From contig OX387190.1 of NCBI GenBank assembly GCA_947561395.2, forward strand, positions 26,592,858 to 26,656,857: DNA of 64,000 bases. The letters are read 5' to 3'. The DNA comes from Buxus sempervirens. Lineage: Eukaryota > Streptophyta > Magnoliopsida > Buxales > Buxaceae. The translations under genes were made by a program, and so were the position numbers. Shown in pieces: positions 5,981 through 62,643 of this stretch. The stretch's first letter is position 1, and each line of letters opens with the position of its first letter. The notes beneath the pieces are model-generated. The model saw only the letters and a program-made list of their open reading frames with translations, had not been told where the DNA came from and made no database searches.

Positions 5981-6838
5981 GATTTTATTGTGACAGTACT
6001 CAAGGATTTGCTCAATTATTGAAGAAAGTGTTCCGAAGTTAAACCCCTTTGCTGAGGGAGTTTTGTATGCAATAGTGAGCAAGCTAGCTTTGCAGGAATT
6101 CAGTACTCAAAGATTTGCTCAAAATGCTTGATTGCTGCAGAGACGCACTTGAAATATTTATGAGGAAATTTCATGCAATAAAACTTTCAGAATTATAAGT
6201 TCAGAAAATCCCTTGGGGGTTATGCATTTTGGTTTCTGAGAGTGGTGTTTTCATTTTAATGGGAGTTGAAATAGAAAGAAAATGTTTGAAAGTACTTAAT
6301 TAAAATTTTGATTTGTCTGCAGAAAATCAGAGGAAAAAGATGAAAAAGAAAATTATAATGAGAGAGCAAAAGCAGCAAAAAAATAGGATATAAGTAAAAA
6401 TACAGAATATTTGAGAGCATGGGAGAGTTTCATAAAATCTTGGTCACTTAACTCCTGGCATTTTCAAACTGGTAGAACCATAAATGACACTTGGCCAATG
6501 TGTCTATTTGAAGTTGTTTTCTTGACTGGATACTGATCAACCATGACTAATTTCAGGATAAGATGGAAAGAAGAATAAAAACTCTCGACAGGCAATGTAA
6601 ACAAAATATATTTTCATCTATAATCTCATCAACTACAAGTAATGGCAACATCCAAGAAGACACAAAATATAGAATCAAAAACATACTACTGAAGACAGGA
6701 AGGTACCCTGCCTTTTCAATTTGTTGATTTCAATGTTCCAGGGAAAAATGCAACTCTAAAATCTTGGCAACACAATGAAAAAGCGAACTTCACATGAAAG
6801 AGATAGTACTGAACTAGCATGTATGAATACTTCCAAAC
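5981..6838. other. intergenic, no gene seen
   Basis: No ORF, RNA gene or repeat supported. The next exon expected for the hydrolase remnant (the block following GYPLK) was looked for here on the minus strand and not found. Confidence 0.4.
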
Positions 6839-10506: not shown

Positions 10507-10649
10507 CAAATCTCCAACTGTTGAACTCAATTTATTGTGCATGCGGTCACTAAATAGGACTTGATAACAAAGCACATTAAAACATTGACATAGCACACTA
10601 AAGTTAATGCTTTACAGCTGCATCGACCAGTGGAGTGGCTCAACCTCTA

Positions 10650-21123: not shown

Positions 21124-24100
21124 TCAAATTCCTTCCCTGGCTATCGTAGTCCACTCACTAAATATCTCACCAGCAGATACTCCCTGGAAAAGTCTGTGCA
21201 AGGTCAAATATCTACTAACATTAGATACCACATCCTCAATCACCGCTTGAAGGCTTGGCTTGTGATCCTCAAAAATACATCTGTTTCTAGCTTTCCAAAT
21301 ATTCCATCCCACTGCAAAAAAAACCGCCCAGTACATTGTTCTGCCTTTCTTCCCTAGAGCTGAAAACCTCCACTGATAGACAAGATTATCAAATTTTTTT
21401 GGCATCACCCAAGACATTTGTATTAACTCTAAGAAGTGATTCCAAATTTTTGAAGCAAATTTGCAGTGGATGAAGAGATGATCAACACTTTCTTCGTCTT
21501 GAAAACACAATACACATACCGATGGAGACCTACACATGTTCTTCCATCTACGCTGTAGCATATCTGAAGTGTTGATTTTGTACAACATTGCTGTCCAAAC
21601 AAAACCTCTTATTTTTAATTGGGCAGGAGCTTTCCATATGAACTTGTGAGGGAAAGTAGGAGAAGAAAATTGATTCCCAAGAAGCAAGTGTTGAAATAAA
21701 GACTTGGAAGAAAACCTACCTGATTTATCAGCCATCCACACATAAGAATCTTCCGTAGGATCCAATATCACATCTTTGAGAAATTCTAACAATAATCCTA
21801 ACTCTGTCATCTCTGAATTCCTCAAATCCCTCCTGAAACGCAAATTCCATTGAGCACCTGAAACTGAATATTTTAGAATATCACTCACAAAAGGGCTTTC
21901 AATAAGCCTGATGGCAAACAGTCTAGGAAATTTATTAGCCAGGGGTTGCTCTCCATGCCAAACATCAGCCCAGAAAAGAGCCTTGTCTCCTGAGTTCACC
22001 TTGATTTTCATCAACGGTACCACTTCTCTAATAGCCGATGCTATAGACTTCCAAGGGCAGACAGAAGATCCTCTACATTGAGAACTCATATGCGTAATAT
22101 TTCTTGATAAACCCCACTTGCTTACCAAAACCTTCTGCCATAGAGCTCCTTCCTTTCCCAATCTCCACACCCATTTCCCAAGTAAAGAGATGTTTTTTTC
22201 CCGAATGTTCCCCAAAGCTAACCCCCCAACACAACGATGCCGACAAATAGCCTCCCAATTCACTAAATGGCATTTCTTTTTTTGACTTCCTTCCCAAAGA
22301 AATTCCCTTTGAAGCTTCTCAATAGCTGAGCACACCTTACCAGGAGCTTTAAACAGTGATAAATAGTAAACAGGCAAGCTCATTAGAGAGGACTTGATCA
22401 AAGTTATTCGTCCTCCAAAAGATAGATGCTTCTTCTTCCATCCTTCTAATCTTTTGCTAATTTTCTCCACAATTCCATCCCAAAAGCTATTTGCATTTGA
22501 TCTTTTCCCAAGAGGGAAACCCAAGTACTTTATGGGCCATTCCTTAACCATGCAACCCAAAGTTGATGCAAAATCAGCCACACACCTTTGATTCAAATGG
22601 ATACCTGCTATGATAGTCTTGTCCATATTAACCCGTAGGCCAGAAATCAACTCAAACGTATTTATGACACTTTGTATCCAAAATACTGTCTTCTTAGACG
22701 GTTCTGCAAACAGCAGCGTGTCATCTGCATATTGAAGGTGGGACACAAGGACTTTGTTCCTGCCCACTTGAAATCCTTGGATCAAACCTTTCTTGCCTGC
22801 CCACTCCATCATTCTACTAAATGCATCAGCCACTAAAGTGAACAAAAGGGGGGACAAGGGGTCTCCTTGACGCAGTCCTCAAGATGATCCAAAAGATCCT
22901 ACCACCCCGCCATTCAAGATGAAGGAGAACGATACATTGTGTAGACATCCCCTTATCCACCTTCGCCATTTCTCCCCAAAGCCTTTCCATCTCAAGACTT
23001 CATCAAGAAAAGACCATTCAACCCGGTCGTAAGCCTTCTCCCAATCCAGCTTGCACACTAACCCTGCTTTCTTGGATCTCCATCTCTCTTCTATGCATTC
23101 ACTGGCCACCAACACATTGTCTAGGATCTGTCTTCCTTGGACAAAGGCACTTTGACTATCGAGGATTAAAGGGTTCAGAATTGCTCTCAATCTTGAAGAC
23201 AATACCTTTGCTAATATTTTGTAGACACTTGTGATAAGACTAATAGGGCGAAAGTCCTTGATCTCTGTAGCACCACTGAATTTCGGGACAAGACACAATA
23301 GAGTTGCGTTTGTTATCTTGTTAACTATGCCATGTGAATGAAATTCCTGAAAAACTTGCATCAAATCAATTCTCACCATATCCCAACTATTTTGGAAGAA
23401 TGCCATCGTGAATCCGTCAGGGCCTGGTGCCTTATCACCTGCTAGATCCATCACTGCTCTATGAACCTCTTCAACTTCAAATGGTCTTTCCAACCAGTCA
23501 CGAGCTTGAACTTCTAATGTGGGAGAGTCTAAGCCATTTAAATCAAATCTGAAAAGCTGTTCCGATGAGTACAGTTTTGAATAGAAACGTTCCAGAGCTT
23601 CAATTATGCCCGTTGAGTCTTCAATAGGGGTACCATCCACAACCAACTTGTGGATGCTATTCATATTTCTTCTCCCCGTTGCAAAGCGATGGAAGAACTT
23701 AGTGTTTTCATCCCCTTCCTTTAGCCAGAGAGCTCTTGACTTTTGTCGCCAGTTAATCTCTTCCATTCTGATAATCTCATCTAAGTTCACTTTCATTTCC
23801 TGTCTCTTATTAATCTCCAACTCCAGTAGTGGCCGAGACCCTTCCAGCAGGTCTAACCTCTCTATCTCCTTCAGTGTTTCTTTCTTCTTGATCTCTACTC
23901 GACCAAATACCTCTCGGTTCCATGTCTGAATATTTCGCCGCATCTTTTTCAATCGAGACATAAACCGAAAACCTGCCCACCCTACAGATCCCCTACATGA
24001 ATCTTCCCACCAACTAGACACGAGGGGTTTAAAGCTTGTGTCTAAAAGCCACATGTTAGCAAATCTGAAAGGGGGGAATCCGATTCTTTGGGATGAATCA

Positions 24101-24795
24101 TCTGAGCATAAAATTGGGAAATGGTCAGATGTAGACCTTACCAAAGTGGTCTGACGAATGTCTGGAAACTTTTCTTCCCAATCTGCAGAAGCAAGAGCTC
24201 TATCAATTCGGCTACACACAAGTTGTTCTTGCATATTTGACCATGTAAATCGTGCCCCCGATAACTGGTAGTCGATTAACTCCCATCTATTAACAAAGTC
24301 CGAAAAGTCTTTCATGCTTTTGGTTATTCTGCTACCCCCTGTTTTTTCCCAAGTGAAGCGGATGGAATTAAAGTCCCCCATGACAAACCAAGCTCCTCCC
24401 CAGTTTGTTCGAATCTGATCCAATTCCTGCCACAAATCCTTCCGCTGCCGATACTTATTAGGGCCATAGACACAGGACAGATACCATTCAAAATTATCCC
24501 CCAAGCGGACAAAATGAACATTTAGCACATACTGACCATAATAACTCAGATCCCCTCTCAATAACTCTGAATTCCAAATTACGACCATTCCTCCCGACGT
24601 CCCCATTGCAGGTTTGAAAGCCCATTGTCTATTTCTTCCTCCCCACAAATAAGAAATTAGATTTTCTGATATACCTTCCTTCTTAGATTCCTGAATTAGC
24701 AAGATGTCAGGCCTACTTCGAGCACATAAATCTCTGATGGCTCGTTTCTTCTCAGCACCCCCAATTCCTCTTATGTTCCAACTAATTATCCGCAT
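21124..24795 (-). pseudogene. LINE ORF2: endonuclease and reverse transcriptase, one stop
   Basis: About 1,220 codons in a single frame, opening at ATG 24795 (MRIISWNIRG). An APE-type endonuclease comes first, with NIRGIG, IQESK, GDFNSIRF and the SDHFPI motif. The reverse transcriptase follows, with DKAPGPDGF, FRPISLITSVYKI, SAFVQGRQI, KLDWEKAYD and the catalytic YADD (LQYADDTLLF). The C-terminal zinc-binding RT domain ends it (CVLCFQDEESVDHLFIHC, then WNIWKARN). A TGA at 22879-22881 interrupts the frame directly before GLRQGDPLSP, where relatives commonly have Arg, so a CGA-to-TGA change is likely. The enzyme would nick target DNA and copy the LINE RNA there. As it stands only the endonuclease and the first part of the RT would be made. 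Confidence 0.85.
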
Positions 24796-27718
24796 AATAA
24801 TTTTCCTTCCCTGCCTCCTTGCTCTTCTTCCGAGCTCTTCTAGTCTTATAGCTCACAGACCATTCTAACTTTTTCATTTCTCGGCTTCTATAAGAGCTTG
24901 ACATCAAGACACCCTCCTTCCTCTCCCAAAATCTATCTACTGCTTCTTGTGGAGAAATTCTATGTCCCTGATTATCCGAAATCTGAATCTGCAGGTCAGA
25001 TAAAATTTCTTTCATCCCTGCCCAGACAGACATATTCACCTCTTCTGGATCATGTCTAACATCCTGATTTACAACCACTTCCGTCTGTTCTGCCACATCA
25101 TGATTGCACGAAATTTCCTGACACTCTATAGGATGATCTTTAAGCTCTTCAACCAGCAGCGGACCATAATCTAACAAGCATCTTTCATCATCTTCAATAT
25201 GGGAACCTGAGGCGCAGCACTTTGATGACTCCAAAAGGTTTTCTTCAACATTCTGATTTTCTATCAGCTCTGCTTGAAATGCACCACCATGTGCTTCCTC
25301 GAACATATCCTGCAGATTATGACGCACTCCTTCAAGTAGACTTCCTGCATAAATATTTTGACCATGCCAATCTGTCACTTGCTTTGAAATCAACTCTTCT
25401 TTGAAAAGCTCATCCAGCCCCTTTCTAGTGAGACTCCCATCCCATCTTTTCTCCCCTTCCATCTCAACAGAGAAATCTGATGCAGATAGACCTTCTTCTC
25501 CTAGAGAAGCTCTAACTATAGTAGGAAGCTCACCATCTTCATCTGTGAAACCTTTTGAGATGGTTGTTGTTATGGGTGAGGGAGATAATTCCTTTCTCCA
25601 ATCGTCATTGACCACCCAAGACGACGTCCATCTCTCGTCGTCCTCACGCGAGCCAGAGGAATTGCATTTCACTGAAGTTTTTTCCTCCAGCCTACCTGAA
25701 GGAGAAGCCTTACCCCATTCGTCAACCAATAAGTTTGAGCCCCGATTTGGGTCAGGTCCAAAAACGTCTTGGGCTTTCCTTTCGGCCAGCTCCTTCCCCA
25801 TCTCATTTGACGCTGTCCAACCCGCATAATGATTCACTGGAGTCTTGCAACCCATATTATGATTCCCTGGTGACCCGCAAATTTGAATATGTCCATCTGA
25901 CTCGGAAGCGACCGCAAGTTCAGACTGAAAACGCTGTTGGGGCCCACCCTCTTTGCCGCCAACTCTCTCGTTCTGACCTCCGTCGAAGCCTTCCTTGCCA
26001 CCTGTATATCGAATAGCCACGTCATCATCTTCAACCTCAGTCGATCTTCCCATACTCTTCACAGACATTCCAGGCAGTACGGAAATTTCTGTTTCAAAGC
26101 AAGCTGAACCATCCCATAAGCACATCGATCTCGGAATACGCCTGGAATTCTCCTCTCTAACCAACAATGTCACCAATCCAAAATCATTGTGAAGGACTTC
26201 AATATCTCCAATTCTGACCAGACCCCCAGAGATTCCTCCAATCATCTCCAACGTCTTCCTTGCAATAAGAAATAGAGGGATTCCTGCTACCTGAATCCAT
26301 GTTCCACCATGCGAGAAAGTTCCAACCCTCTGGTCACCTGACAAAGGGAACCTTCGAAAGCAGACCGATTCCTTGTTACTAAACCTGATCTCCTTACTCC
26401 TTAAAAGGGTATCCATCTCCGTATCAGTCTGAACAAAGACAATCGCCTTTTTAGAAGATAACTCGAACAGGTCACACTGGACTCTTTTCGAAAGAAGGAT
26501 TTCCGTCTTCACCCTCGACCAATCGACGTCCGAATGCAGTTGATGACACAGAACCGCTCGACACCACTTGGTTTCAGTTGGACAAACCCCCACTACTGGG
26601 ATCCACCCCATATTCTGAATACTTCCGGATACTCTGTTTCCCTGAAAAAGCTCAGCCACCGACTTCACCGATGCTTTTCCTTGTGTTTCTTCACAACCCC
26701 TCTCGCATGCCTTAGAGGGTCCAGCTACCGTTTTATGTATTTGTAGAACCTACTCAAAACCCATTCGAAGATATTCCCAATCACCACTTTCAAGATTCGT
26801 GGGAAAAATCAAGCTCCGTTGCCGGTTGTCCGCAAATTCTGAGATTTGAAGAAAGCTGCCCCAATCGTTAAATTTCATTTCCACCATCAGCTTCCGATTC
26901 TTAAATCTTCTTGTGCCGAATAACTCATATTTTCTCCCATCTTCCTTTGGCAACTTCTCAATCACCCATCTTGCTTCCTCCTCCTGGAAAATCAAGGACC
27001 TCATCCTTTTTCCAGATACCTCAGAGATACGAGCCACAGAGCCTATGACTGCAGCAAACCCCTCAAATAAAAAGGACTTACGCTGAATACTGAAGATCCT
27101 CTTCTTCACCTTATTGACGGATACCTCTTCATGTGTAGTTCTCCTACCTCCAGGGCTATTGAAGCTGCTATGTCTGTTTCTTATCGGCACGTATTCAGCA
27201 ACACGTCGCTTTCCCCTATTCTTCCAATACATCATCTTCTCTCTTTTCAAAGGCTCCCTCTGTAAACTTCTGAAACTCCTCGACCACCTGTTATTATTTC
27301 TCAGCCGATTCCAACTCTGCCTTCGATGGATATCTCTGCTCCATTTCGGTCGCACCGACAGAGGCCTTCTCGAAGAAGATGGAAAACGCCCCCATCGACG
27401 CTCACGAGATCTCCCCCTCCACTCAAGATAATCAGTTCTCGAAACCGAATACTTATCATACCGACGGTCATCTTTAACATCAGGCCGCCGTTGAAATTCA
27501 ATCGATTCAAGACGCCAACGGTTGCCTCTCGACGCCAACCGTCTCTCGTACCCGCTTCTATGCGAAGCCGCGAAACGTCTTGCCTCTCGCCTCCAGTCGT
27601 CTCGCCAATCGTCACGCCGGCCGTCTCGCCAGTCGTCTCGCCTCAAACCAGACGCCAGTCGTCGCGCCGGTCGTCTCGCCCGTCGCCATTCGCCGTCTCG
27701 CCAATCGTCTGGCCTCAA
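24782..27718 (-). pseudogene. LINE ORF1: nucleic-acid-binding protein, one stop
   Basis: One minus-strand frame of about 979 codons broken only by TAG at 26750-26752. The N-terminal part is extremely Arg/Asp/Trp-rich (DDWRD-type repeats, roughly codons 1-50), then basic. The conserved plant L1 ORF1 region (KSFLFEGFAAVIGSV, then GKRMRSLIFQEEEARWVIE) comes before the stop. After the stop come WIPVVGVCPTETKWCRAV and the DUF4283-like block (FRRFPLSGDQ, GGTWIQVAGIPLFLI). The C-terminal half is acidic and poorly conserved. I saw no CCHC zinc knuckle. The frame starts with TTG at 27718 and the first in-frame ATG is far inside, so the true start is uncertain. It would coat LINE RNA. It overlaps the ORF2 start by 14 bp. 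Confidence 0.7.
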
Positions 27719-27795
27719 ACCAGTCGCCTCCGATCGTCTCGCCAGTCGTCGCGCCAGCCGTCTCGCCTCAAACCAGTCGCCAGTCGTCGCGCCGA
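27585..27795. repeat. GTCTCGCC tandem repeats at the LINE 5' end
   Basis: About ten copies of short CG-rich words related to 'cgtctcgccagtcgt', with 'cctcaaaccag' interspersed three to four times. On the minus strand they encode the Arg/Asp/Trp-rich start of ORF1. They look like promoter-proximal monomers or an expanded coding repeat. Confidence 0.75.
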
Positions 27796-27836
27796 TTGTT
27801 TCATTTCAGTGGATTTTGGAGATGGTTGTGATTGAC

Positions 27837-34815: not shown

Positions 34816-35649
34816 TATAAAAATAAATAAAAACCCACGATAAGCATACGTGTTCTGCCAGAGGCCTCCTCGGGCTAGTGAAAATATTTAAACAAGGATT
34901 TTATTCCAAGAAGCGGAATCAATCAGCCCAGACTTGTCGCAAAAATGATGACGAGAGGCCTTATCCAGGTCAGTGAGAGACCAAAACCATTTCAATGTTT
35001 AGCCTCAGTTCCATCCTTCAATGGGCTGTTTGGAGCAGGAAACCTGATCTGAGTGATTTGGCAACTGGACCTGTGGAGCACCATCTCGTAAGTCGAATTT
35101 TGAGAAAGTTATGGGAATGGAAAGATAAGTTACACTTATACATATCGCTCAAAAAGGATAGTTATAGTTGATTATCTCTACTACAGATCCTAGTTGATCA
35201 CCACTCGAGATTTGGGCAGGCCCCTTGCCCATTGTCTGATCCAGCAAGATTTTTCAAGCCAACTTTTATATCGTTGCTGGAGAAAAGCATACATGGTGGA
35301 GTAGATATTCAATAGTTGCTGCCTCAAACATCATGAAGAAATGAAGAATCATTGGGAGCTTCCCGTTGCTCCCATCTCAGAGCAGAGAATCATTCATACT
35401 GGGTGTTGATCCTTCCCTGGAAGTGAATGAAAAATCGGAGATATTTGGACTACATTTGGCCATCTGGTCCCAATCCAAAATGAAGGAGGCTTGTGTCAGG
35501 TCGATAAAACATTCACCAAATCACTGTACAGATCCTATTCTAAATATGACTGCGTCATCTTGATCACCATTCAAGAAATTTTGAACCACTTCACATATTA
35601 GTTTGTGAATGGCCAACTAAGATATTGCAAAGCTAAACCAAGTAACTAA
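34816..35649. other. intergenic, no gene seen
   Basis: No supported gene, RNA or repeat. Confidence 0.4.
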
Positions 35650-36518
35650 GGCCTCGTTTGACTTTCATTCCGGATTAGGAATTCATTCCGAGAATGAGTT
35701 CTTAAAACTCATTTTGCGAATCAATTTTGAAGTTTTTCTAATTGCGTTTGGTTAGCACGTAGCAAAATGAATTTTCACCTAGAAAATTATTTGGTTAACA
35801 AGTAATAAAATGAGTTCCATGAAATTTGTTTTTTCTTTTTCTATGAATAATTATAAGAAATTGATTGATCCCTGAAAGATAAAACTCGAAACACCTAAGA
35901 AATGAAAAAAAAAAAATAAATAAAATACAGGGAATCATAAAGCATGACGTTAACTGCATGTTTTAGTGGCCATCTGAAACATTCTATTCACATTTCTTTT
36001 TCTTCTTAAAAACATTGAACTTTCAAATACTGTTAAGTTGACCTAATTAACATTGTATTGGTTATATATTATCAGGGAATCACTTGTACATCAGCAATAG
36101 AAATTTATTATTTCTATTTTTACTCATTTTTTGTGTGAAAATGAATGCATGCTACAGTCCCAAAGAGTAACAGGGCTAAACTTGATGCATTCAATCAATC
36201 CCAGTGCTTCTGGAATGCAACATTTGGTATAAGAGATAATACCAAATCCCCGGTTCAAGGCAGCTAGAAGACAAGTAGGTGCAGGGTATTAGCAGTGAAA
36301 AGGAAAAAGGGCTACGTATTGCCAGAGTGAAAGCTGCCTAGAGAATGGAAGTCACTAATGGTGTCACTACAAAAGCGTGGTGGTCTGTTATGATTAGTAA
36401 ACCAACATCGTGGGCTTGACATTACATCCATTGGGGGGATTCCGGCATATTAGTCAGGTTCATGATACACACCCTTGAACACAAAGATGATATTTGGGAA
36501 ATAAAAACAGAGTTCCTT

Positions 36519-36851
36519 CTAAAGAAAAAGAGGAATTAGACAGGTGCATAATACCTTGGAGGATTTATAGTATCCAGAACCACAATCTTCTCCACAATTT
36601 CCACAAACGTATCCCTTATGACGTATCAGATCCCCAAAAACGTCTGAGTAAGATGCCAGTGGAGGCAATCTAAATCCGTTCTCGACTACCTCTCCATGAT
36701 CGGATGCAATTGGCGGCAATGAAACAATTTTTGAGGAGTTAGGAACAGCAACCACCCGAACTCCATTGGGAGCTCCTTCCTCAAATCTGACCTTCAGCCT
36801 GTCATCATCTTCCCGCACCGTCGTGTGATCATCGGAAGGCGACGATGCACT
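36519..36851 (-). pseudogene. SWI3A fragment (SWI/SNF subunit), captured
   Basis: The minus-strand frame reads DRLKVRFEEGAPNGVRVVAV, then NGFRLPPLASYSDVF and GYVCGNCGEDCGSGYY. This matches the middle of SWI3A, a SWI3-type core subunit of plant SWI/SNF chromatin remodelers, ending in the CxxC pair that starts its ZZ-like zinc finger. An acceptor-like TTTCAG lies just before 36851 and a donor AAG|GTATTA at 36555. Neither the SWIRM domain upstream nor the SANT domain downstream is present. The following exon-like stretch shows only EG before diverging. It lies inside the Harbinger-type element, about 170 bp from the amidase exon. Confidence 0.75.
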
Positions 36852-37018
36852 GAAATTTATCAACCCCGATCTCTCTAAGTACGCATCTTTGGATCTAACG
36901 TATTTAAACCTAGAATTTCAACTCCGGTGAAACCAAGTACGCATAGCATCAAAGGAAATTTGAAGAAGAAGAAGAAGAAGAAAACAATATAATAAGAAAA
37001 GGTGAAAAGAGGCAATAC

Positions 37019-37104
37019 CTTTCTGCTGTATCGACATTGGTGGAGACGTCATCGGAGCAAGCGAATTGCACAGCTGAAACGGAAACGACTCTTCTTTCCT
37101 CCAT
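37019..37104 (-). pseudogene. N-carbamoylputrescine amidase exon 1, captured
   Basis: ATG 37104 opens a 28-codon frame, VVSVSAVQFACSDDVSTNV then DTAER. It ends at a donor AAAG|GTATTG (37019). This closely matches the N-terminus of plant N-carbamoylputrescine amidase (nitrilase superfamily; polyamine synthesis), where exon 1 ends at the same TAER. No further amidase exon follows; the intron runs into the SWI3A segment instead. GC-rich sequence upstream of the ATG (to about 37260) looks like the native 5' UTR and promoter and was probably captured with the exon. A chimeric transcript from the amidase promoter into the SWI3A exon is possible. Confidence 0.75.
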
Positions 37105-37540
37105 TAGTCGCTTCTATTCTTCTAAGTAAACTCCAGAGACTAGGCCCTTCCTCTGTCTCTCCGCCTCTTTAAAAACTCAAATAGAAACAGTGTAACGAGG
37201 CAGGAGAGAAGACAACCCACCGCCTCGACAAAGTCTCTTTCCTCATCTCAGGGCTCCGACCAGAAAAGCACGTATTGCAATATTACGTTTTATGCCATTG
37301 TCTAAACTTCTTATTATTTACAAGTTTGCCACCGAAAAAATGCAAAACTCATTCTTCAATTTTAAAAACGGGTTGGAGGCCGTTTCTGTCTGCTACGGTT
37401 TTTTTCATTCTCATTCTACTAGAATGAGTTCTAGCATAGCTTACCAAACACTCATTTAACTCCTGAAATGCATTCTAAGCCTTGGAATTCATTTCAAGCC
37501 TTGGAATGAGTTCCCAAAATGAAAGCCAAACGAGGCCTAA

Positions 37541-38539: not shown

Positions 38540-38781
38540 ACAATGTTTAGAATATTATTTAAACATTAGGACTATAAAATATGGATGTTTTCATTTTTTT
38601 TTTAAGTCACACTGCTTAACCATGAATAGGTTAGATGAGATGACAAAGACAAAATATTGCAACAAGAAGCATAACCCAAACTTAGGTATTGTTTCAATCC
38701 TGAACTACATTTAACATTTGGAAGGATTTAATGAAGAGCAGGGGCTTGTCCAAAGGAGATGAAAAGACAGATTTGGCATAC

Positions 38782-40475
38782 CAGTTCGCTTCCATAATAT
38801 TGAACAATATTCGGATGTGAAAGCTGACTTAGCATCTTTATTTCCTGTTCACATAGAAGTGAAAAATGTTACCGATCCGTCAGCAAAAGTAGATTAATAC
38901 TTATAAATGGAGTTACTAATGCACCAAATTCAACAGTGCAAAAACCAAATGCAAATAAATATAAAATGGGAAATACATAGGATTCCCAGAATGAAAGAAA
39001 ATACCTGGTTCAGTTGCTTAAGACACTCGTTTGAGGTCTTATCATCAGCGATGACCTTGACTTCTTTTATTGCGCACATTTGTCCACTTTCACTGTTAAA
39101 TAGAAGATACAACATTAGCATGGAGCAATGACAAACTTACAAACTTTCTTTCTTGTTTTAGTCAAGGACTTTCTTCTTTCTGATATTGGAATATCAGTTT
39201 TGTTAGTACAAAACCTCAAAAAAGAAAATCAAGGAAATAAAGAATAATAAGAGTAATCAAAGACAATTCACCTGTTAAATCCAACATAAACCTGCCCAAA
39301 TGTATCCCTTCCCAAAAGCTTTCCCTTTCTCCATTTTGGATGATAACACTGAGTTTTCATTCGATCCAGTATTTTTTTGGGTCTGCAAGTTAATAGTTCT
39401 AGTTGGGGAAACCGGAGGAAGGGGCAGTGGGTGACTCGGAATCCTCTCACCTTCATTTTTCCCTGTCGGTGACTCCATAAACATTCCACACAAACGTGGA
39501 TGTGTCGGTGATGTGGGTGTAGTGAATGCTCTGGATCCTTGTTCCAGACTTCTTGATCTTGGGTCGACTTTGGCATCTCCATGTACTCTGAAAAATGCCA
39601 TATTACATGTGTTTCTATTAGGGCAACCATAACCAAATAATCTCTTTCTAGAAAAAGGTTCTAAATTTCAACCTCCTCAGCATTTCGAAAAGGTCAGAAG
39701 CCATTGTTTCATTCTCTAATTTTAATGAAACTTCCAGCACATGCTACAAATCTATGACTATGATTAAAGCAGTAAAAGAGAACTATAAGAACTGAAATAA
39801 CAAATTTCAGTGAACACAAACTTTTGTTAATGAGATGAAAGACATGGCTCCTAATTCTCTACTGACTTTTCACCCTCAAAACACAATCAGTTCTATGGTT
39901 GAAGCTCCATTTTGTTATTTCATCTTCATCCAACATATATAATCCTCAATAGAAACCATAGAAAAATTCAGATAAAGTGAAAAAAGAAGGGTTACAAGAG
40001 CCACAGATATCAACCTGCATATAGAAAATTTTATGGAAATACAGAAGAGTGCGACAGAGCACAGACAAAATACAAACACAAAATTGAAAGAGAACCGAAG
40101 TCCTCAGTCATTAAGTCCCATATAAATTGTAAATCTCCCCCATCAGGATCAACCCATCTATAAACTAGAATCAATTGCTTAAAAACAATCCAAAATCCCA
40201 AAACCGAATCAATAGAAGTAACCAAAAATCCAATCTCTAAATTTCACTCTAAATTTCAACATAAACCCACAAACCCAAAATTCCAACTCGGAGAAGTGGA
40301 AATGACACACACCTGTAAACAGGAGACAAGCCCTGATCGGGAGGAATTTAATCCGAAGAATCAAATGAGCTAGCACGGGAAACCGAGAACGACCCAGATC
40401 CCAATACAACCCCATGATCAACACCCACAGACAAGGCCGACGAGATCGATGGCCGGGGCAGAGGATGACCCCTCT
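38782..40475 (-). pseudogene. truncated MAPKKK3 pseudogene
   Basis: A partial minus-strand duplicate of the kinase at 43531-48534. It contains the 3' end of exon 1 (about 40475-40318), exon 2 (around 39590-39272), exon 3 (about 39093-39005, with [12 protein letters not shown]) and exon 4 (about 38844-38782). It ends before the catalytic loop exons. Exon 2 has lost two bases relative to the intact copy just after TGSNENS, which shifts the frame ahead of the glycine loop. The loop itself reads GRDTFG instead of GRGTFG. The 5' half of exon 1 and the promoter are absent. It cannot encode a kinase. Confidence 0.85.
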
Positions 40476-40552
40476 ACTCCAGGAGATATTCTGGGTCCGA
40501 AACCCAGAGGAATGCACGAGTAATTATTTACATTTATTTACAGGAAAAAGAA

Positions 40553-43530: not shown

Positions 43531-46500
43531 TTACAAAGATGTCCTTCGGATGGGTCCTGCTCTGGGGGACCCTTCAGGTGTTGGGACTTTTACCTGGGGC
43601 ATATCTCCCCAAAGATCAGCAGGGTGGGATTTGTTTGGCCTTGTTGACAAGACGGAATAATCTTTCATGGCATAACTGCTATGTTTCCCGGAAGAATAAG
43701 CCAGATGAGGTGGAGAATACAAACAGCTCCGATGTTCTCGTAATGGACTTGAACATGGAGACACAGGTAAGGATGTGATCAGTCTCATACCATCGCTGCA
43801 GACATAACATTGAAGGATTTTACTTGAAATGATTCACAAGTACAAATGAAGAAAGCGAGGATGGGAAAAGATTGCTGTTACCTCGAGCAGCTTGAAGCTC
43901 TTGAACATGCTACCTTTGGTTTGTTTGAACAATCTTCAACAGGTAAGATCATTCTTGCTTTGTTAGAATGTAACTCAGAGGCTATCTGCTAGAATGTATA
44001 ATAAGAACGAGAGATAAGTTTATGAATGCTTTTTTTTTTGTGTGCATGTGCATGTTTCTCTTTTTGTATGGATAAGTGAGAATTTTCTACTTATTTAGAA
44101 TATATGATGTATGCTACAAAAGTAAAAAGGGTTTAGAAAGCAAGGTGAAAGTTTATGCTGCTATTGCATTAACGAAGAAGACGAAGAAGAAGAAGAAAAA
44201 TAAAAAGGAGAAAAAAATGTCAGACTAAAAGCTATAAGAGATTAAAGCAGTGAGATTTGCCCATAAATTAGATAGTCCAGATTGATAAGAAATTAAATAT
44301 GTGTGCATTGAGCATTTAACGGGTACAGATTATTACATTAAGATGGGCCCAAATTATCATGTAGTTTAAATTATAGGCCTAAAGATGAGCAGAAACTTTA
44401 GGGTGATGGTGGAAGGAGAGGAACAAAAAGATATTTGAGTGAATGTCATCATGTTGGGAGGGGATATTTTAGTTTATTAGGTGCATCTTGGTTGGTCAAC
44501 AATCCAGAGTTTGTGGGGTGTACTATTGCAGACTTCATGTAGAATTGGAAAGCCTTGGCTGAGATTACTATTTAAATTGATTAGATCATCCTTATTGGTT
44601 CATGTGGTTCTTTGGTTTGAATATCAATCTTCTCTCTTGTTTTGTCCTCTTTTTGTAGTCTTTTTTTTTTTTTTTTCTTTCCTTTTTTCAATCTTGGGGC
44701 GGGGCTACCGCCGGCATATGTGAGATTTTCCTGTGTTTTTGGTATGGATGGGTGGCAAGTTCTGATTTGATGATTTTTTTTATTGATGGGTGGGTAACTT
44801 CTGGTTTTGATGTTGAACAGGACATTGTTGGATCTTTTTCCTTGTATTCTACCTTAATTTCAATATATATATACTAGTACATTTTCATTAAAAAGGTGAG
44901 CAGAAATTTCCAGATCTCCACTGGAACTATTTCAACTTGATCCCAAAGAGAACTAAATAATAATGCAAATATATTTTAGGTTCAGAGAGTCTAAAATTCA
45001 AATGGTTCTAAATTTAAATATAAACATTAATTTACTTTCAACACTTTACCTGTCTGTAGCCTCCATCAATGGAAGAGGGAAAACCATCATTGATTACATT
45101 GTTTTTTGCAACTTTTCTCACAGCTTGGTTTCGAATGAAAGGGTGATCTAGTAGTTGCACAGCCGTAGGACGTGCAGATGGGTCACGTTGTAGACAAAGA
45201 TTAATAAAACTCTTTGCCTCACTAGAAAGGTGATCAGGGATGTTGGGCATATCTTTGCTGTTTCCAATTTTGAAGATTGCAGCCACCTGTTAATAACAGC
45301 AGGAGAATATGAGGTTGGTGCTAGGAATACATCCAATATCATAGAAAAGATACATATCATAGAAAATATGGTATTAAATCTCACCCCTTCATACTGGCTC
45401 CAAGGCGGTTTTGTTGTTGCCATCTCTATAACTGTACATCCTAAGCTCCAAATGTCCACTGCAAGGTTGTAGCCACTGATATTCATTATAACCTGAAGGA
45501 AAAACAAATATCAGACAAAAGGAGAAAAGCAATGACCTATAGACATGAAGGAGGAACTAAGATTTGAACTACCTCGGGTGCCATCCAGTAAGGGCTTCCT
45601 TTGAAAGAAAGCATTGATGTATGAGATGTTATCTGGTTCAAAGAAGAAGTGCATTAGAAACAATCCTTTCAGGTAAAAGAAAGGTGTGTGTGTGTGTTTG
45701 CGGGGGGGTGGTGGGTGGGTGGGTGTTTTGGGGTGTGGTGTTAACCGGCCAGAATTATGTGCCTTATTCAATATTATGTCCTCAAGGGAATCTTCTTTTT
45801 TCCTTTACTTTTCTTGCCCAGCTTTATTTCCATTGGCATTATCCAATCAATATAGATATATAAAGAGTCCATATCAAAGATTAAGGAGAGGCATACATGT
45901 TTAGCCATGCCAAAGTCTGCAAGTGTGATTTCACCATTAGGACCCACTAGAATGTTAGCCCCTTTGATATCCCTGCCAAGAGAAAAAAATATTTTGAGTT
46001 ATGAAGACAGTAAGAGAAAGCTTGAATTTCTTTACCAAAACTTCTCCATAACTGAATCAAGCATACCAATTAAGTACCTGTGTAGAGTATTCTTTCCATG
46101 CAAATAAGCAAGTCCAAAAAGAATCTGCCTAGCATAATTTTGAATAACAGGTTCCTTGAACGGACCATATTCCTGAAGTAGCTTTTGGATAGAACCCCCG
46201 GAAACATACTCCAGATACACCGAGAGAGCATCTTCCCCCTGCATACATAAGGTATCACGATCAATCAGTTGGGGAATTTAATTTTCATGTTCCCACTTCC
46301 ACTGAAGGGAGTGGAAACTGTTTAGAATTTATCTACATTCCAATATTATTTAAGTTATATTAGGACTATAAAATATAGATGTTTTCATTTTTTTTAAAGT
46401 CACACTGCTTAACCATGAATAGGTTAGATGAGATGACAAATACAAAATATTGCAACAAGAAGCCTAACCCAAACTGAGGAACTGTTTCAATCCTGAACTA

Positions 46501-48534
46501 CATTTAACATTTGGAAGGATTTAATGAAGAGCAGGGGCTTGTACAAAGGAGATGAAAACACAGATTTGGCATACCAGTTCACTTCCATAATATTGAACAA
46601 TATTCGGATGTGAAAGCTGACTTAGCATCTTTATTTCCTGTTCACATAGAAGTGAAAAATGTTACCGATCCGTCAGCAAAAGTAGATTAATACTTATAAA
46701 TGGAGTTACTAATGCACCAAATTCAATAGTGCAAAAACCAAATGCAAATATAAATAAAATGGGAAATATGTAGGATTCCCAGTATAAGAGGAAATACCTG
46801 GTTCAGTTGCTTAAGACACTCGTTTGAGCTCTTATCATCGGCAATGACCTTGACTTCCTTTATCGCGCACATTTGTCCACTTTCACTGTTAAAATAGAAG
46901 ATACAACATTAGCATGGAGCAATGACGAACTTACAAACTTTCTTTCTTGTTTTAGTCAAGGACTTTCTTCTTTCTGATCTTGGAATATCAGTTTTGTTAG
47001 TACAAAACCTCAAAAAAGAAAATCAAGGAAATAAAGAATAATAAGAGTAATCAAAGACAAAATCACCTGTTAAATCCAACATAAACCTGCCCAAATGTAC
47101 CCCTTCCCAAAAGCTTTCCCTTTCTCCATTTTGGTTGATAACACTGTGAGTTTTCATTCAATCCAGTATTTTTTTGGGTCTGCAAGTTGGTAGTTCTAGT
47201 TGGGGAAACCGGAGGCAGGGGCAGTGGGTGACTTGGACTCCTCTGACCTTCATTTTTTCCTGTCGGTGACTCCATAAACGTTCCACACAAACGTGGATGT
47301 GTCGGTGATGTGGGTGTAGTGAATGCTCTGGATCCTCGTTCCAGGCTTCTTGATCTTGGGTCGACTTTGGACTCTCCATGTATTCTGAAAAATGCCATAT
47401 TACATGTGTTTCTATTAGGGCAACCATAACCAAATAATCTCTTTCTAGAAAAACGTTCTAAATTTCTACCTCCTCAGAATTTCAAAAAGGTCAGAAGCCA
47501 TTATTTCATTCTCTAATTTTAATGAAAATTCCAGCACATGCTACAAATCTATGACTATGATTAAAGCAGTAAAAGAGAACTATAAGAACTGAAATAACAA
47601 ATTTCAGTGAACACAAACTTTTGTTAATAAAATGAAAGACATGGCTCCTAATTCTCTACTGACTTTTCTCCCTCAAAACACCATCAGTTCTATGGTTGAA
47701 GCTCCATTTTGCTATTTAATCTTCATCCAACATATATAATCCTCAATAGAAATCATAGAAAAATTCAGATAAAGAGAAAAATGAAGGGTTACAAGAGCCA
47801 CAGATATCAACCTGCATATAGAAAATTTTATGGAAATACAAAAGAGTGCGAGAGAGCACAGACAAAATACAAACACAAAATTGAAAGAGAATCGAAGTCC
47901 TCAGTCATTAAGTCCCATATAAATTGTAAATCTCCCCCATCAGGATCAACCCATCTATAAACTAGAATCAATTGCTAAAAAAAATCCAAAATCCTAAAAC
48001 CAAATCAATAGAAGCAACCAAAAGTTCAATCTCTAAATTTCACTCTAAATTTCAACAGAAACCCACAAATCCAAAATTGCAACTCGGAGAAGAGGAAGGT
48101 GACACACACCTGTAAACAGGAGACAAGCCCTGATCGGGAGGAATTTCATCCGAAGACTCAAATGAGCTAGCACTCGAAACCGAGAACGACCCAGACCCCA
48201 ATAAAACCCCATGATCAACACCCACAGATAAGGCCGACGAGATCGATGGTCGAGGCAGAGGATGACCCCTCTTCTCTCTATCTGAGTAAAAACCCGCGAA
48301 TCCCGAAGACCCAGATAACTCACTACCAAAGCAGGGAAAATCCAAGCTACTCCTAGGCGAATTACGCGGCGTAAGCTTCAGCGAGACTTCTTCCAAGCTC
48401 TTGGGCTTCTCCCTGTCGTCCTTCCTCTTATCGTTCTTTGTTGAAGCTCTGTTACAGTTTTGGTAGACTTGTTGTTCGTCCTGGTGCGGTGGTTTGTTCC
48501 TGCAGGACTTGCTTCTTCTCCAGAAAAACGGCAT
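43531..48534 (-). CDS. MAPKKK3: MAPKKK3-type protein kinase, 11 exons
   Basis: A MEKK/YODA-family MAP kinase kinase kinase. It phosphorylates MAP2Ks in cytoplasmic cascades for immunity and development. Exons by GT/AG sites with consistent phase: 48534-48110, 47384-47067, 46885-46798, 46637-46575, 46238-46078, 45972-45897, 45632-45573, 45492-45385, 45286-45050, 43913-43882 (uncertain), 43795-43531. The total is about 611 codons, against about 609 in Arabidopsis MAPKKK3. ATG 48534 ([12 protein letters not shown]) is the first in frame. The N-terminal ~220 residues are Ser/Pro-rich and regulatory (KKGHPLPRP-like, [11 protein letters not shown]). Kinase motifs: GRGTFGQV loop, CAIKEV Lys, [10 protein letters not shown] catalytic loop, [26 protein letters not shown]. 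The conserved tail is [14 protein letters not shown]. All motifs are intact. A transposon lies 286 bp upstream of the ATG, and exons 1-4 lie in segmental duplication copy B. Confidence 0.9.
45702..45734 (+). other. G-rich, G-quadruplex-capable tract in an intron
   Basis: On the plus strand, four or more runs of G3+ with 1-4-base loops follow a (GT)n tract. They lie in the MAPKKK3 intron between the DFG exon and the activation-segment exon. The kinase pre-mRNA carries the C-rich strand, so a quadruplex would form on the DNA or on antisense RNA. Confidence 0.6.
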
Positions 48535-48811
48535 TTTAGAAGAATTAAGCAGAGAAATTCTCGGAAGAAGTAGAGACAGGTATACAGAGAGATCCAAGTT
48601 GGGTCTCGAATACGATATTTCGAATTATGTGTATTTGTAGGAGACAGACAAACCTTGAAGATACGACGAAGAAGAAGAAGAAGAGAGCGAGAATGAGAGC
48701 AAGCCAAAGTAGCTGACAGCTCAGCCAATCGAGCCGGCGTTCGGTGGTTGGACCAACCGTGGTGCTGACATGGATAACAGATTAAAAAGGCTTTGATTAC
48801 TCCATGACATA
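48535..48811 (-). promoter_or_regulatory. MAPKKK3 5' UTR and remaining promoter
   Basis: Upstream of the ATG the minus strand has a CT-rich leader with (CTT)n (48661-48690), typical of plant 5' UTRs. A possible donor follows it (TTCAAG|GTTTGT near 48653). Only about 280 bp remain between the start codon and the foldback transposon, so distal promoter elements have been displaced by 5 kb. Confidence 0.4.
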
Positions 48812-50769
48812 TTTTGATAAGGGAAAATTAATTTTTAGTGGTCCTTTATTAATAAATTTAAGATTCAGTCACATAAGTTTGCACTTATACGTTTCAGATC
48901 ACCTTTATCAAACTATTTAAGATTCAGTAATCTTTTACTATTCCAACCTCCTTTCTTCCGATAATGCCCTTTTCTTCTTTAAATAAATTTAAAATTAAAT
49001 AAACAGGTTTCCAAGATTGCCCTTCTTACGTTTGAAAATGTGTATATTTCCAAAAGTACCCTTTATCCCAACTTTCTTATTTTTTGTCTTTATTTCTTTT
49101 TAAAAAATAATAAAAAAAGAAAAGGAGGAGAGATAAGGTTTCAACAAAATGACTTGTACAAATATTGTATCTTGACTTATACAGTTATAAGAGAACTAGT
49201 ACCATTTAACCAACATATATATATAATATGTTTATAAAGAGGCTTGTACATATTTAACAAATGACATGTACAATTTTATGTACCGACTTGTACGGTTCAA
49301 TTAAATGATTTGTATCTTCTACCAATTGACTTGTACAATAATACATACTAACTTGTATGACTAAATAGGCTTATACCTCCATATCAAATGACTTATACAA
49401 TACAATGTACTGACTTGTACCTTTATAGGAATATCAAGATCACTCAGTTACATGAGTTGTACCTTCTATCAATTAACTTGTACAACAATATACATTAACT
49501 TGTACGATTATATAGACTTGTTAAATGACTTGTACAATGTTAAGAACTGACTTGTACATTTATAGGAGAACCTGTACAATTAAATTAAATGACTTGTACA
49601 TTCTACTAATTGACTTGTACAACAGTATATACTAACTTGTATAACTAAATAGAAGTACTTCTATATCAAATGACTTGTAGAGTACAATGTACTGACTTAT
49701 ACCTTTATAGGGATACATGTACCACTCAATCAAATGACTTGTATCTTCTATCAATTGACTTGTACAACAATATACACTAACTTATACGATTATATAGACT
49801 TATATCATCTCTATTAAATGACTTGTACAATGTTAAGTATTGACTTGTACATTTATAGGAGGACCTGTATAACTTAAGCAAATGACTTGTACAACTATAT
49901 ATACTAACTTTTGTATGATTAAATAGACTTTTACCTCTCTATCAAATGACTTGTACAATATAATTTTCTGACTTGTATCGTTATAGGGGTACCTGTACCA
50001 CTCAATTACATGACTTGTGCCTTCTATCAATTGACTTGTACAACAATATACACTAACTTATACGATTATATAGACTTATATTTCTCTATTAATTGACTTG
50101 TATAATGTTAAGTATGACTTGTAAATTTATAGGAGGATCTGCATAACTCAATCAAATGACTTGTACATTCTATGATGGACTTATACAATAATATATATTA
50201 ACTTGTATGACTAAATAAACTTATACCTCTTTACCAAATAACTTGTCCAATACAATATTTTGACTTGTACCTTTATAGGGGCACCTGTAGCACTCAATCA
50301 AATGACCTGTACATTTTACTAATTGACTTATACAACAATATACACTAATTTGTATGATTATATAGACTTATACCCCTATATTAAATGACTTATACAATGT
50401 TAAGTACTGACTTGTACATTTATAGGAGGACCTATACAACTCAAGCAAATGACTTGTACATTTTACCGTTTGACTTGTACAGCAATATATACTAACTTGT
50501 ATGACTAAATAGACTTTTACCTCTCTATTAAGTCAAACTGTAGAATGTACAAGTCATTTGCTTGAGTTGTATAGGTCCTCCCATAAATGTACAAGTCAGT
50601 ACTTAACATTAAAGCCGGCAAAAAACGAACCGACCCGACGAGTCAACCCGATTATAAATGGGTTGGGTTGACCCGTTTATTAATTGGGTTGGGTGCGGTT
50701 GAGGTTTTCTTAACCCGTCCGTAATCGGGTTAACCCGATTATAACCCGTCCACCTGACGGGTTACCCGA

Positions 50770-51765: not shown

Positions 51766-54730
51766 TTGACAACTGGTTTTTGGCTTTTTGCAAAAAAAAT
51801 AAATAATAAAAAAATAATCGGGTTGGCGGGTTGAACCGATTAGTGGCGGGTTGGGTTCGGTTTGGGGGTTTTCCAACCCGCCACTAATCGGGTTCAACCC
51901 GACCCAACCCGATTAATCATCAACCCGATTATGACCCGCCCGAACCCGACCCAACCCGACCCGTTGCCAGCTCTACTTAACATTGTACAAGCCATTTAAT
52001 AGAGGGAATATAAGTCTATATAATCATACAAATTAGTGTATATTATTGTACAAGTCAATTAGTAGAATGTATAAGTCATTTGATTGAGTGCTACAGGTAC
52101 CCCTATAAAGGTACAAGTCAGAATATTGTATTGTACAAGTTATTTGATAAAGAGATATAAGTTTATTTAGTCATACAAGTTAGTATATATTGTTGTATAA
52201 GTCCATCATAGAATATACAAGTCATTTAATTGAGTTGTGCAGGTCCTCCTATAAATATACAAGTCATACTTAATATTGTACAAGTCAATTAATAGAGAAA
52301 TATAAGTCTATATAATCATATAAGTTAGTGTATATTGTTGTACAAGTCAATTGATAGAAGGCACAAGTCATGTAATTGAGTGATACAGGTACCCTTATAA
52401 AGGTACGAGTCAGAAAATTGTATTGTACAAGTCATTTAATAGAGAGGTAAAAGTTTATTTAGTCATACAAGTTAATATATATTGTTGTACAAGTCAATCG
52501 GTAGAATGTACAAGTCATTTGCTTAAGTTATACATGTCCTCCTATAAATGTACAAGTCAGTACTTAACATTGTACAAGTCATTTAATAAATGTGATATAA
52601 GTCTATATAATCATATAAGTTAGTGTATATTGTTATACAAGTCAATGAATAAAAGGTACAAGTCATTTGATTGAGTAGTACAGGTATCCCTATAAAGGTA
52701 CAAGTCAATACATTGTACTGTACAAGTCATTTGATAGAGAGGTAAAAGTCTACTTAGTCATACAAGTTAGTATATATTGTTGTACAAGCCAATCGATAGA
52801 ATGTACAAGTCATTTGCTTAAGTTATACAGGTCCTCCTATAAATGTATAAGTCAGTACTTAACATTGTGCAAGTCATTTAATAGATGTGATATAAGTTTA
52901 TATAATCGTATAAGTTAATGTATATTGTTATACAAGTCAATTGATAGAATGTATAAGTCATTTGATTGAGTGGTACAGGTATCCTTATAAAGGTACAAGT
53001 CAGTACATTGTACTCTACAAGTCATTTGATATAAATGTACTTCTATTTAGTCATACAAGTTAGTATATACTGTTGTACAAGTCAATTGGTAGAATGTACA
53101 AGTCATTTAATTTAGTTGTACAGGTTCTCTTATAAATGTACAAGTCAATTCTTAGCATTGTACAAGTCATTTAACAAGTCTATATAATCGTACAAGTTAA
53201 TTGATAGAAGGTACAAGTCATGTAACTGAGTGATCTAGATACTCCTATAAAGGTACAAGTCAGTACATTATTGTATAAGTCATTTGATATGGAGGTATAA
53301 GCCTATTTCGTCATACAAGTTAGTATGTATTATTGTACAAGTCAATTGATAGAAGGTACAAGTCATTTGATTGAACCGTACAAGTCGGTACATAAAATTG
53401 TACAAGTCATTTGTTAAAGATGTACAAGCCTCTTTATAAACACATATTATATATATATATATTGATTAAGTGGTACTAGTTCTCTTATAACTGTATAAGT
53501 CATGATACAATATTGTATAAGTCATTTTGTTGAGACCTTATCTCTCCTCCTTTTCTTTCTTTATTATTTTTTGAAAAGAAATAAAGACAAAAAATAAGAA
53601 AGTTGGGATAAAGGGCACTTTTGGAAATATACACATTTTCAAACGTAAGAAGGGCAATCTTGGAAACCTGTTTATTTAATTTTAAATTTATTTAAAGAAG
53701 AAAAGGGCATTATCGGAAGAAAGGAGGCTGGAATAGTAAAAGACCACTGAATCTTAAATAGTTTGATAAAGGTGATCGGGAGAGGGATAGGGCGAACTTA
53801 GGGGACTGAATCTTAAATATTTTAATAAAGGACCACTAAAAATTAATTTTCCCTTTTGATAAACAGCACACCAAAAGCCAAAAAAAAAAAATAATAATCC
53901 CAGTAAGCCTGAACCAACCCAACCCTATAGTTGACTTTTGAGAGATGTGTTCAAGATAAAGTTTTTTTTTTTGGTAATATGTCTTCAGGATAAAGTTGAT
54001 GCACCCCAAAGCTCAGCATAAATTCTTAATTATTACCCTTTCTTTTTCCTAAATAAATTATTAGTGAATGACAGTTTATATAATGGCTTATAAGTTCAAG
54101 CCAATTAAATCTATATTGTCCTGACCCCGAACTGGTTAGGTTCCATCTGAAAGTTGGGAGAAAAGAAGTAGTGTGTTTGGGTTGGATTTCAATTTCTCTC
54201 TAAGCTGTACTTCACATTTCCTGCTATGGGTTTTAAATATGGTGTCTAAAGCTATAGAAGAAGAGAGCTAAGGTGATGTTGGGCATAGAGATGGCAATAG
54301 ATTATATATGCCAAAAAGCTATTGGGAATGTAAACCCCATTCCATCTTAATAAAACCCTAAAAAATGACAATTCAAATTTGCTTTAATGGGAATAATGTA
54401 ATGGGACTTATTTGGTTAAACCAGCCAAATGACATCAATAAAAGGATTTAAAGATTCTTTTTGCCTAAACTAAAATAGTGGATGGCACCTACGACTAAGT
54501 TTTTAATTGGGATAGATATCGAAGTCAACATGAAAAAGGGGAGGGATTATTTAGGTAGGATATCTAAGTTTAATTAGGATATATAAGTTAATATAAAAAA
54601 AAGAAGGGGAAATGGCTCTTAAGGCAGCAAATATCAGTTTATTTCGGATATAGAAGTTAATATGTAGAAAGGATAGAGCACTTTTAGCAACAAATGTCAC
54701 TCAAATCTGCCCAGTTCACATTTATAATAA

Positions 54731-61638: not shown

Positions 61639-62643
61639 TCACTTACCTGATTCAGCTTCTTCAAACTCTTCTAAGCTTTCCTCAATCTCAATAGGGGTTG
61701 GAGAAGCCCGTAACCAATCTTGTAAACAAATCAAGCATTCCACAAGCTTTGGAGTCAATGAACTACGAAATTGGTCAAGTACACAACCTCCTGTACTAAA
61801 TGTAGACTCTGAAGCAACTGTTGATACTGGAATTGCCAAAACGTCACGTGCTATATGAGAAAGCACACAAAACTTCGAACTATTCATCTTCCACTAACAT
61901 AAAATATCAAAGCCAGGATCATCTTTCTCAACACTCTCTTCCAAATATCTATCCAATTCAGATTTTGATTGAATGACCTCTTCTTCTTCCAAGTGTTTGT
62001 AAAACTCATTTTGAAGATTATTTATTTGGACAGATGCATCAGGAATAAGTTGTTCAACGTTCATCACATCAACATATTGGCTTGCATTGTTTGAAGGCAC
62101 ATCTGGTGACTACTTGAATCAAGTACTTGATAATGTTTGAACAAACGATCCATTGCTTCTTTAACTTTTGCAATCAATTCTATAACCTTCTCAACAGGAG
62201 AAACTTTTGCATAACAAAACCTCACGTACTTCAACTTATATCTAGGGTCCAAAACAACTGCAAACAATAGCACCATATTTACTTTGTCAGTGTTTCCCCA
62301 ATACTTGTCAAACTTTTCTTTCATCTTCATTGTCATATCAGATAAGCAAGGATCATCACACTTCGCCCATTGAACCAAAAGATTTTCAATCCTACAAACT
62401 TTATGAAAATAAGAATTTGAAGTTACGTATAATGACCCTGACAAACGCTTTGTAATACTGTAGAAACACTTGAAAAACTTACATAAGACCATTGCTGTTT
62501 CCCAATCATCTTCACTTGGAGGTCCATCCTTCAAATCATTCATAAAATGGAAATCATCTTCTTCAAGACGCTCAAAAGCCTTTTGAAATTTTAACGCAGC
62601 TTCCAACATAAAGTAGGTAGAATTCCACCTTGTTGGAACATCT
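61639..62643 (-). pseudogene. hAT transposase (RICESLEEPER-like), broken
   Basis: Minus-strand remains of a plant BED-type hAT transposase. DVPTRWNSTYFMLEAAL starts near 62635, followed by the central block (LDPRYKLKYVRFCY, the hAT-like RNase-H-fold region). After a frameshift near 62100 the spacer continues, and then the C-terminal dimerisation domain (VLAIPVSTVASESTFSTGG, RSSLTPKLVECLICLQDW). TAG at 61894-61896 replaces a position that is normally Trp, just before WKMNSSKF. The N-terminal BED zinc finger and the first catalytic residues are missing: an LTR inserted at 62644 cuts the ORF. It cannot produce a transposase. Confidence 0.85.

Follow-up and report, generated by a model that had tools for sequence, protein, structure and literature searches.

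Gene fragments captured by a Pack-TYPE PIF/Harbinger element of Buxus sempervirens: order of the captures and a probable role of template-switching repair

The element in the window

The window studied here is a stretch of 64,000 nucleotides of the Buxus sempervirens genome (contig OX387190.1, positions 26,592,858 to 26,656,857 of the forward strand). At 35650-37537 it harbours a non-autonomous PIF/Harbinger element of 1888 bp, in which fragments of a SWI3-type gene and of an amidase gene lie between two blocks of parental element sequence (Table 1). The longest open reading frame starting with ATG within the element is only 55 aa long.

The sequence GGCCTCGTTTG is found without mismatch at the left and right ends, as a sequence-only reading of this DNA had stated; the terminal inverted repeat is actually 20 nt long and contains one mismatch (19 of 20 bases are paired). 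The perfect repeat of 11 bp ends at base 12, which is A in the window copy and G in two related copies, designated L039 and L040. When the 20-mer of the end was searched for in the window (R at base 12, up to three mismatches allowed), it was found at two places, both of them the ends of the element, with 0.01 places expected. A TIR-like 11-mer with one mismatch at 18431 was dropped, since a match of this quality is expected 0.46 times in the window.

TAA borders the element on the left and on the right, which had also been noticed earlier. On C19, a paralogous sequence (90% over 462 bp) represents an empty site and reads through with a single TAA. Thus the element was inserted at its site in the window with a duplication of 3 bp of the target.

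Table 1 Features of the element and its cargo (coordinates are those of the window)
Feature	Position	Strand	Remarks
Target-site duplication TAA, left	35647..35649		single TAA at the C19 paralogous site
Pack-TYPE PIF/Harbinger element	35650..37537		1888 bp; ends, family alignment, empty site
Left terminal inverted repeat	35650..35669	+	20 nt, 19/20 paired with the right repeat
Left parental sequence (element 1-433)	35650..36082		about 90-99% to family members
Captured SWI3-type segment	36080..36879	-	800 bp; colinear with the C10 donor, L051 4433-5232, 99.1%
Part of the following SWI3 intron	36080..36554	-	without native acceptor or next exon
3' part of the SWI3 exon	36555..36879	-	frame open; native donor GT follows at 36554
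TACGC filler joining the SWI3 piece to the amidase piece	36880..36884		5 nt; junction alignment, randomisations
Captured amidase segment	36885..37199	-	315 bp; exon 1 with part of intron 1 and about 95 bp before the ATG
AAGTACGCAT, probable source of the filler	36935..36944	+	50-60 bp inside the amidase piece; repeat match
Amidase exon 1	37019..37104	-	86 nt; ATG at 37104-37102, donor after 37019
Right parental sequence	37200..37537		338 bp; alignment to family members
Right terminal inverted repeat	37518..37537	-	pairs with the left repeat
Target-site duplication TAA, right	37538..37540		single TAA at the C19 paralogous site

The family in the genome

A search of the genome (676.5 Mb) with the element gave at least 43 matches, the best 40 of 1009 candidates being scored. 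The matched elements include ones that have both ends in common with the window element and carry different interiors. The common exact 20-mer of the end occurs 139+152 times in the genome, and its backwards control does not occur at all. TWA stands before 252 of these 291 ends (119+133). Among 12 elements that were aligned, nine have an identical TWA on both sides. The exceptions include L039, which has no duplication, and L046, which is truncated at one end; in L056 there is TGA on the left, and the end is shifted by one base.

The left 275 bp of the window element are common to L055 and L056 at 91%. L055 contains a DDE_Tnp_4 stretch (Pfam, 7.6e-14), and L056 contains Myb_DNA-bind_3 (7.2e-25) together with a weak match to DDE_Tnp_4 (0.0033) that falls below Pfam's cut-off; transposase and Myb-like coding regions are present in family members as pieces. 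Because L055 and L056 share the ends and carry such pieces, we place the family in PIF/Harbinger. This bears out the earlier view that the element is Harbinger-type: its ends are common to transposase-bearing relatives, and the target-site duplications are mostly TWA. The element belongs to the Pack-TYPE (Pack-PIF), an already known kind.

The same terminal repeats also occur with other cargo, namely LIN-type and Methyltransf_29 fragments. A fragment of a LIN-type E3 ubiquitin ligase gene was observed in L043 (1848-2738; PF23568, 2.7e-51) and in L045 (C15 and C3). A Methyltransf_29 fragment (PF03141, 1.4e-16) lies in L050 at 6383-6691 (C11), and L049 (C8) has a related interior. No donor of the methyltransferase fragment was found among 40 of 1527 candidates scored; the methyltransferase is probably a further captured gene in the family, besides LIN. 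Two other candidates for cargo were rejected: about 720 bp of the L050 interior are a high-copy repeat (40 of 1527 candidates scored), and a phytochelatin synthase stretch in L042 falls outside the element.

Donor genes and the captured segments

The donor of the amidase segment is located on C1 (L053). The peptide of exon 1 and exon 2 of the donor matches an N-carbamoylputrescine amidohydrolase in PDB (3.6e-15). A genome search with the amidase piece gave five places (all five candidates were scored): the donor, L040, L041, the window element, and L039. Exon 1 of an amidase gene with intact ATG and donor GT had been recognized from the sequence alone, and the comparison with the donor agrees with this: the exon 1 of the window copy has two changes, both silent, and its peptide equals that of the donor. 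The frame is also kept in L040 and L041, with one missense change each, and exon 1 of L039 has a frameshift of one base. An altered start of exon 1 in L040 was considered and rejected, since the aligned copy has an intact ATG and frame. Taken together, this pattern would be too little to argue either for constraint or for its absence.

The donor of the second segment is on C10 (L051). The donor exon matches SWIRM (1.2e-25) and SWI3/RSC8 chains. The sequence-only reading had spoken of a SWI3A segment; the segment is indeed SWI3-type, being 99.1% identical to the C10 gene over 800 bp, and the letter “A”, as opposed to another SWI3, is our presumption. The homology begins at 36879, which corrects the start proposed earlier. 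The acceptor proposed earlier (first base 36849) proved to be an AG inside the coding exon (AGT of ...INFSAS...) and not the native one. A native acceptor inside the cargo was rejected, because the donor exon continues upstream of the break.

The SWI3 cargo starts at about residue 78 of the donor exon and therefore retains only the last nine or so of the 79 SWIRM-matched residues (the match spans residues 8-86). A Pfam search with the 105-aa frame of the SWI3 cargo found nothing. A genome search with the SWI3 piece gave eight matches (six of six candidates scored), which comprise the window element, L039, the donor, an 88% paralogue, and two short fragments on C9 and C3. The latter (C9:20306640-20306817 and C3:10504551-10504741) are 84-93% identical to the piece and have a similar internal gap; possibly, they represent a separate capture.

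Alignment to the donor genes thus places the donors of the two segments on C1 and C10, i.e., they are unlinked and lie elsewhere in the genome, and the Pack-type capture suggested from the sequence alone is upheld.

Order of the captures

L040 (C8) and L041 (C12) have the parts 1-433 and 1236-1888 in common with the window element. Between these common parts their sequence is different and includes an amidase piece (976 and 974 bp, respectively) and no SWI3 piece. The amidase segment in the window is a remnant of these approximately 980 bp. The window element and L039, which carries the same cargo and is 99.15% identical to it, lost the part 433-1902 of L040 (1470 bp) and gained the SWI3 segment of about 800 bp. 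In L040 and L041 the amidase piece runs colinear with the donor, and of this piece only the right end remains in the window element; hence the amidase piece was captured first.

Divergence from the donors agrees with this order. The amidase piece differs from its donor at 36 of 973 positions in L040 and at 47 of 971 in L041, and the SWI3 piece differs from its donor at seven of 800 positions in the window element and at five of 800 in L039.

Junctions of the captured segments

Our reading of the capture junctions covers three captures (SWI3, amidase and LIN) with seven junctions. Three of the junctions have a supported templated filler, two have microhomology only, one is blunt, and one has a filler whose template is unsupported. 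For three of the four junction fillers, the apparent source is DNA no more than about 60 bp away.

At the left junction of the SWI3 segment, TCA (36080-36082) is common to the parent and the donor, i.e., there is a microhomology of 3 bp; by our estimate, one such microhomology by itself is near the chance level. At the right junction, ...CTAAG is followed by the filler TACGC and then by ATCTTTGG... The filler with its flanks AAG..AT makes the 10-mer AAGTACGCAT, which recurs in the window element, in L039, and in L040 (at 1953), and is absent from the amidase donor stretch and from L041. Such a recurrence has a chance of 0.009 when the whole element is considered and of 0.0007 for a distance of up to 100 bp. 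For a match covering the filler within 200 bp the value is 0.0026, and with flanks of 3 nt it was reached in none of 400 randomisations; the five bases of the filler alone give 0.32, which is not significant.

The left junction of the amidase segment contains a filler of 11 nt, CTTTTCATGTC, which repeats, in inverted orientation, sequence lying 13 bp inside. In L040 this match extends over 16 bases (0 of 20000 randomisations); homogenisation between the arms may have made it longer. When the present-day donor is used for comparison, the value is 0.0025 for the filler alone, and with its flanks the match was reached in 0 of 400 randomisations. The right junction of the amidase segment is blunt.

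The donor of the LIN fragment is on C1. Its left junction has a TGA microhomology and a filler of 27 nt that repeats nearby donor sequence (0 of 400 with flanks of 3 nt), and its right junction has the 3-bp microhomology TTC. About 590 bp are also deleted from the interior of the fragment; the joint holds a filler of 6 nt, for which no template found support (0.53 alone, 0.61 with flanks, 0.125 by another measure).

The sibling copy

The 99% sibling of the window element occupies positions 1001-2887 of L039, which correspond to C8:26664842-26666728. Its ends are intact, and it has no target-site duplication. It is not a segmental duplicate of the window locus: a comparison of the 400-bp flanks of both gave no similarity (E 1e-3). 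Three paralogous sites on C21 hold 26 bp that are absent from L039, and L039 has five extra nucleotides (AAAGG). With 26 bp of the target lost and five bases gained in comparison with these sites, an ordinary insertion was rejected as well. No template is supported for the filler AAAGG (0.90 by itself, 0.09 together with its flanks). Judging from these sequences, L039 looks like an excised element that was end-joined into a break. The same cargo is therefore present at more than one site, in L039 and in the window, with a non-canonical entry in L039.

Mechanism of capture

Two models describe how Pack-TYPE elements pick up genes: tandem insertion with re-mobilisation, and gap filling during repair. 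Parents, derived copies, donors, and empty sites are available here in one genome, which makes the capture order, the joints, and the fillers readable, and these favour repair synthesis. We estimate at roughly 75% the probability that the window element is a non-autonomous Pack-TYPE element which obtained its cargo in two sequential captures by template-switching repair and which moves in trans.

The course of events would be as follows. About 980 bp of the amidase gene would have entered an ancestral element first. Later, a break or gap would have arisen inside an L040-like element, and repair synthesis would have jumped to the unlinked SWI3 gene and copied about 800 bp of it. The synthesis would next have used the element itself as template for a few bases before it reached the amidase part again, with 1470 bp deleted, and the product would have transposed to the window site with duplication of TAA. 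Movement in trans is presumably due to a PIF-type transposase. The break may have followed excision, and it is the type of footprint that points to synthesis-dependent, Pol-theta-like repair, with excision or an internal break as the putative trigger and the polymerase putative too.

Repair synthesis with template switching is favoured because three of the four fillers look templated and the flanks of two donors lack ends of the family. The junction fillers fit template-switching break repair better than the published tandem-insertion model. The ends of the 12 aligned elements have no match in the 9.9 kb around the SWI3 donor or in the 9.0 kb around the amidase donor; the LIN donor was fetched at its borders only. 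An interior repeat of L050, not its ends, matches near the edge of the SWI3 donor stretch. Family elements could have stood beside the donors in the past and could since have been cleanly lost.

Tandem insertion with re-mobilisation, in which two elements come to lie around a host piece, the inner ends decay, and the outer ends move the whole block, was proposed for Pack-PIF in maize (PMC8903248), and with hundreds of family ends in the genome close insertions must occur. However, the borders of the cargo consist of microhomology, blunt joints or fillers, and no internal element ends are seen there. The donors are on C10 and C1, whereas the elements concerned are on C8, C12, C15, and C3, and no element ends occur in the stretches retrieved around the SWI3 and amidase donors. 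Besides, the SWI3 segment came in place of 1470 bp of the parent and not in addition to them. We regard this course as unlikely for the elements studied.

The SWI3 piece could instead have come by exchange or gene conversion with an element that already carried it, as the mosaic nature of the family, with ends in common and interiors swapped, would allow. We find this quite improbable, since the homology at the junctions does not exceed 3 bp, the filler excepted, and the SWI3 search (six of six candidates) gave only the window element, L039, the donor, the 88% paralogue, and the C9 and C3 fragments, which may themselves lie in elements.

Template-switching repair may also have a broader part in this family. 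We tentatively suggest, at a little under even odds, that host genes are taken up by such repair repeatedly and not by tandem insertion, and that L039 entered its site without duplication, as an excised molecule end-joined where 26 bp of the target are deleted. In that case a single repair pathway would write the cargo and could also integrate the product, and the ordered series of parent-type elements, derived elements, donors, and empty sites would let the rules of capture be measured.

Coding potential of the cargo

The sequence-only reading had suggested that the amidase promoter possibly drives a chimeric transcript. In such a case the amidase 5' part would drive transcription and exon 1 would be spliced to the SWI3 piece, with a 138-aa fusion or a regulatory RNA as the functional product. 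Exon 1 of the window copy is intact with ATG and donor, its frame is kept in the parent-type copies as described above, and the amidase and SWI3 pieces are on the same strand in one order. With exon 1 ending in phase 2, a transcript spliced from 37019 to 36849 would stay in the SWI3 frame, for a predicted product of 138 aa.

The suggestion is weakly founded. The captured sequence upstream of the ATG is about 95 bp long. The native SWI3 acceptor is missing, so any splice needs a cryptic site. The tract before 36849 has pyrimidines at eight of 19 positions, and the best tract (17 of 19), at 36518, lies beyond the SWI3 exon. Among the 28 AG sites scanned, seven yield a product with the SWI3 test peptide, and hence the in-frame option is unremarkable. 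Exon 1 of L039 is frameshifted by one base, and nearly all of SWIRM is missing from the cargo. We therefore hold a functional chimera to be very improbable; most likely, as far as the sequences go, the cargo has no protein function, and the fusion is probably of no functional consequence.

Relation to known systems

Non-autonomous PIF elements bounded by terminal inverted repeats and carrying gene fragments were described as Pack-PIF in maize and rice in 2022, and that source explains them by tandem insertion and re-mobilisation, a model first put forward for Pack-CACTA (PMC8903248). One maize cluster holds two gene pieces, one of 163 bp and, in four elements, a further one of 58 bp (PMC8903248). 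The window element is alike in having two gene pieces within a TIR-bounded non-autonomous PIF element. In contrast to the Pack-PIF of that source, the second capture in the window replaced a part of the element, and the cargo is longer and includes intron sequence. In addition, donors and parent-type elements are at hand in the Buxus family, and its junctions carry templated fillers (compare PMC8903248).

Transduplication in PIF elements was reported for grapevine Pifvine-3 in 2008, with target-site duplications of mostly TAA/TTA and extra genic sequence (PMC2528002). In the Buxus family, parents, derived copies, and donors can be compared and the junctions analysed; the sections of that source considered show no such series for Pifvine-3.

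In animal Pack-TIRs, microhomology at the breakpoints was explained by gap filling or FoSTeST template switching, and gap filling has been put forward for plant Pack-MULEs as well, where a test is called worth exploring (PMC8277862). Short microhomology at the capture breakpoints is common to the animal Pack-TIRs and the Buxus elements; the differences are that the hosts are animals and that Harbinger is not named in the main text (PMC8277862).

In Arabidopsis, short templated fillers are described as a hallmark of end joining by Pol theta (PMC10923293), and in yeast short inverted insertions arise by foldback (PMC11724301). The fillers of both are like those described here in having a nearby template, direct or inverted, and small microhomologies; they differ in that they were obtained at induced breaks and not inside transposons (PMC10923293, PMC11724301).

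Among the titles and abstract openings covered by our literature search, with subscription journals mostly outside its scope, there is no Harbinger capture resolved with parent, donor, and fillers. Gene capture by PIF elements is already known, and it is the readable capture history that adds value. With hundreds of ends, and with at least LIN and probably also a methyltransferase gene captured in addition, the mechanism becomes countable across the family.

Other features of the window

A protein-kinase gene lies at about 45000-48624 on the minus strand (Pkinase, 3.8e-10); we take it to be MAPKKK-like. The 5' part of this gene is duplicated at 38551-40479 (95% over 1937 bp), about 1 kb from the element. 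An inverted pair, 49147-50546 and 51974-53534, adjoins the kinase gene, each arm having internal repeats of its own.

Several other mobile elements or their remains were observed. A LINE-type element with endonuclease and reverse transcriptase (RVT_1, 1.7e-17) occupies 21124-27805 on the minus strand, these limits being those of the long open reading frames. A frame of 553 aa of FAR1/MULE type is found at 8953-10611, also on the minus strand (FAR1, 2.4e-24; MULE, 1.2e-28), and a fragment of a hAT-type transposase is located at 62067-62663 (PF14372, 5.2e-31).
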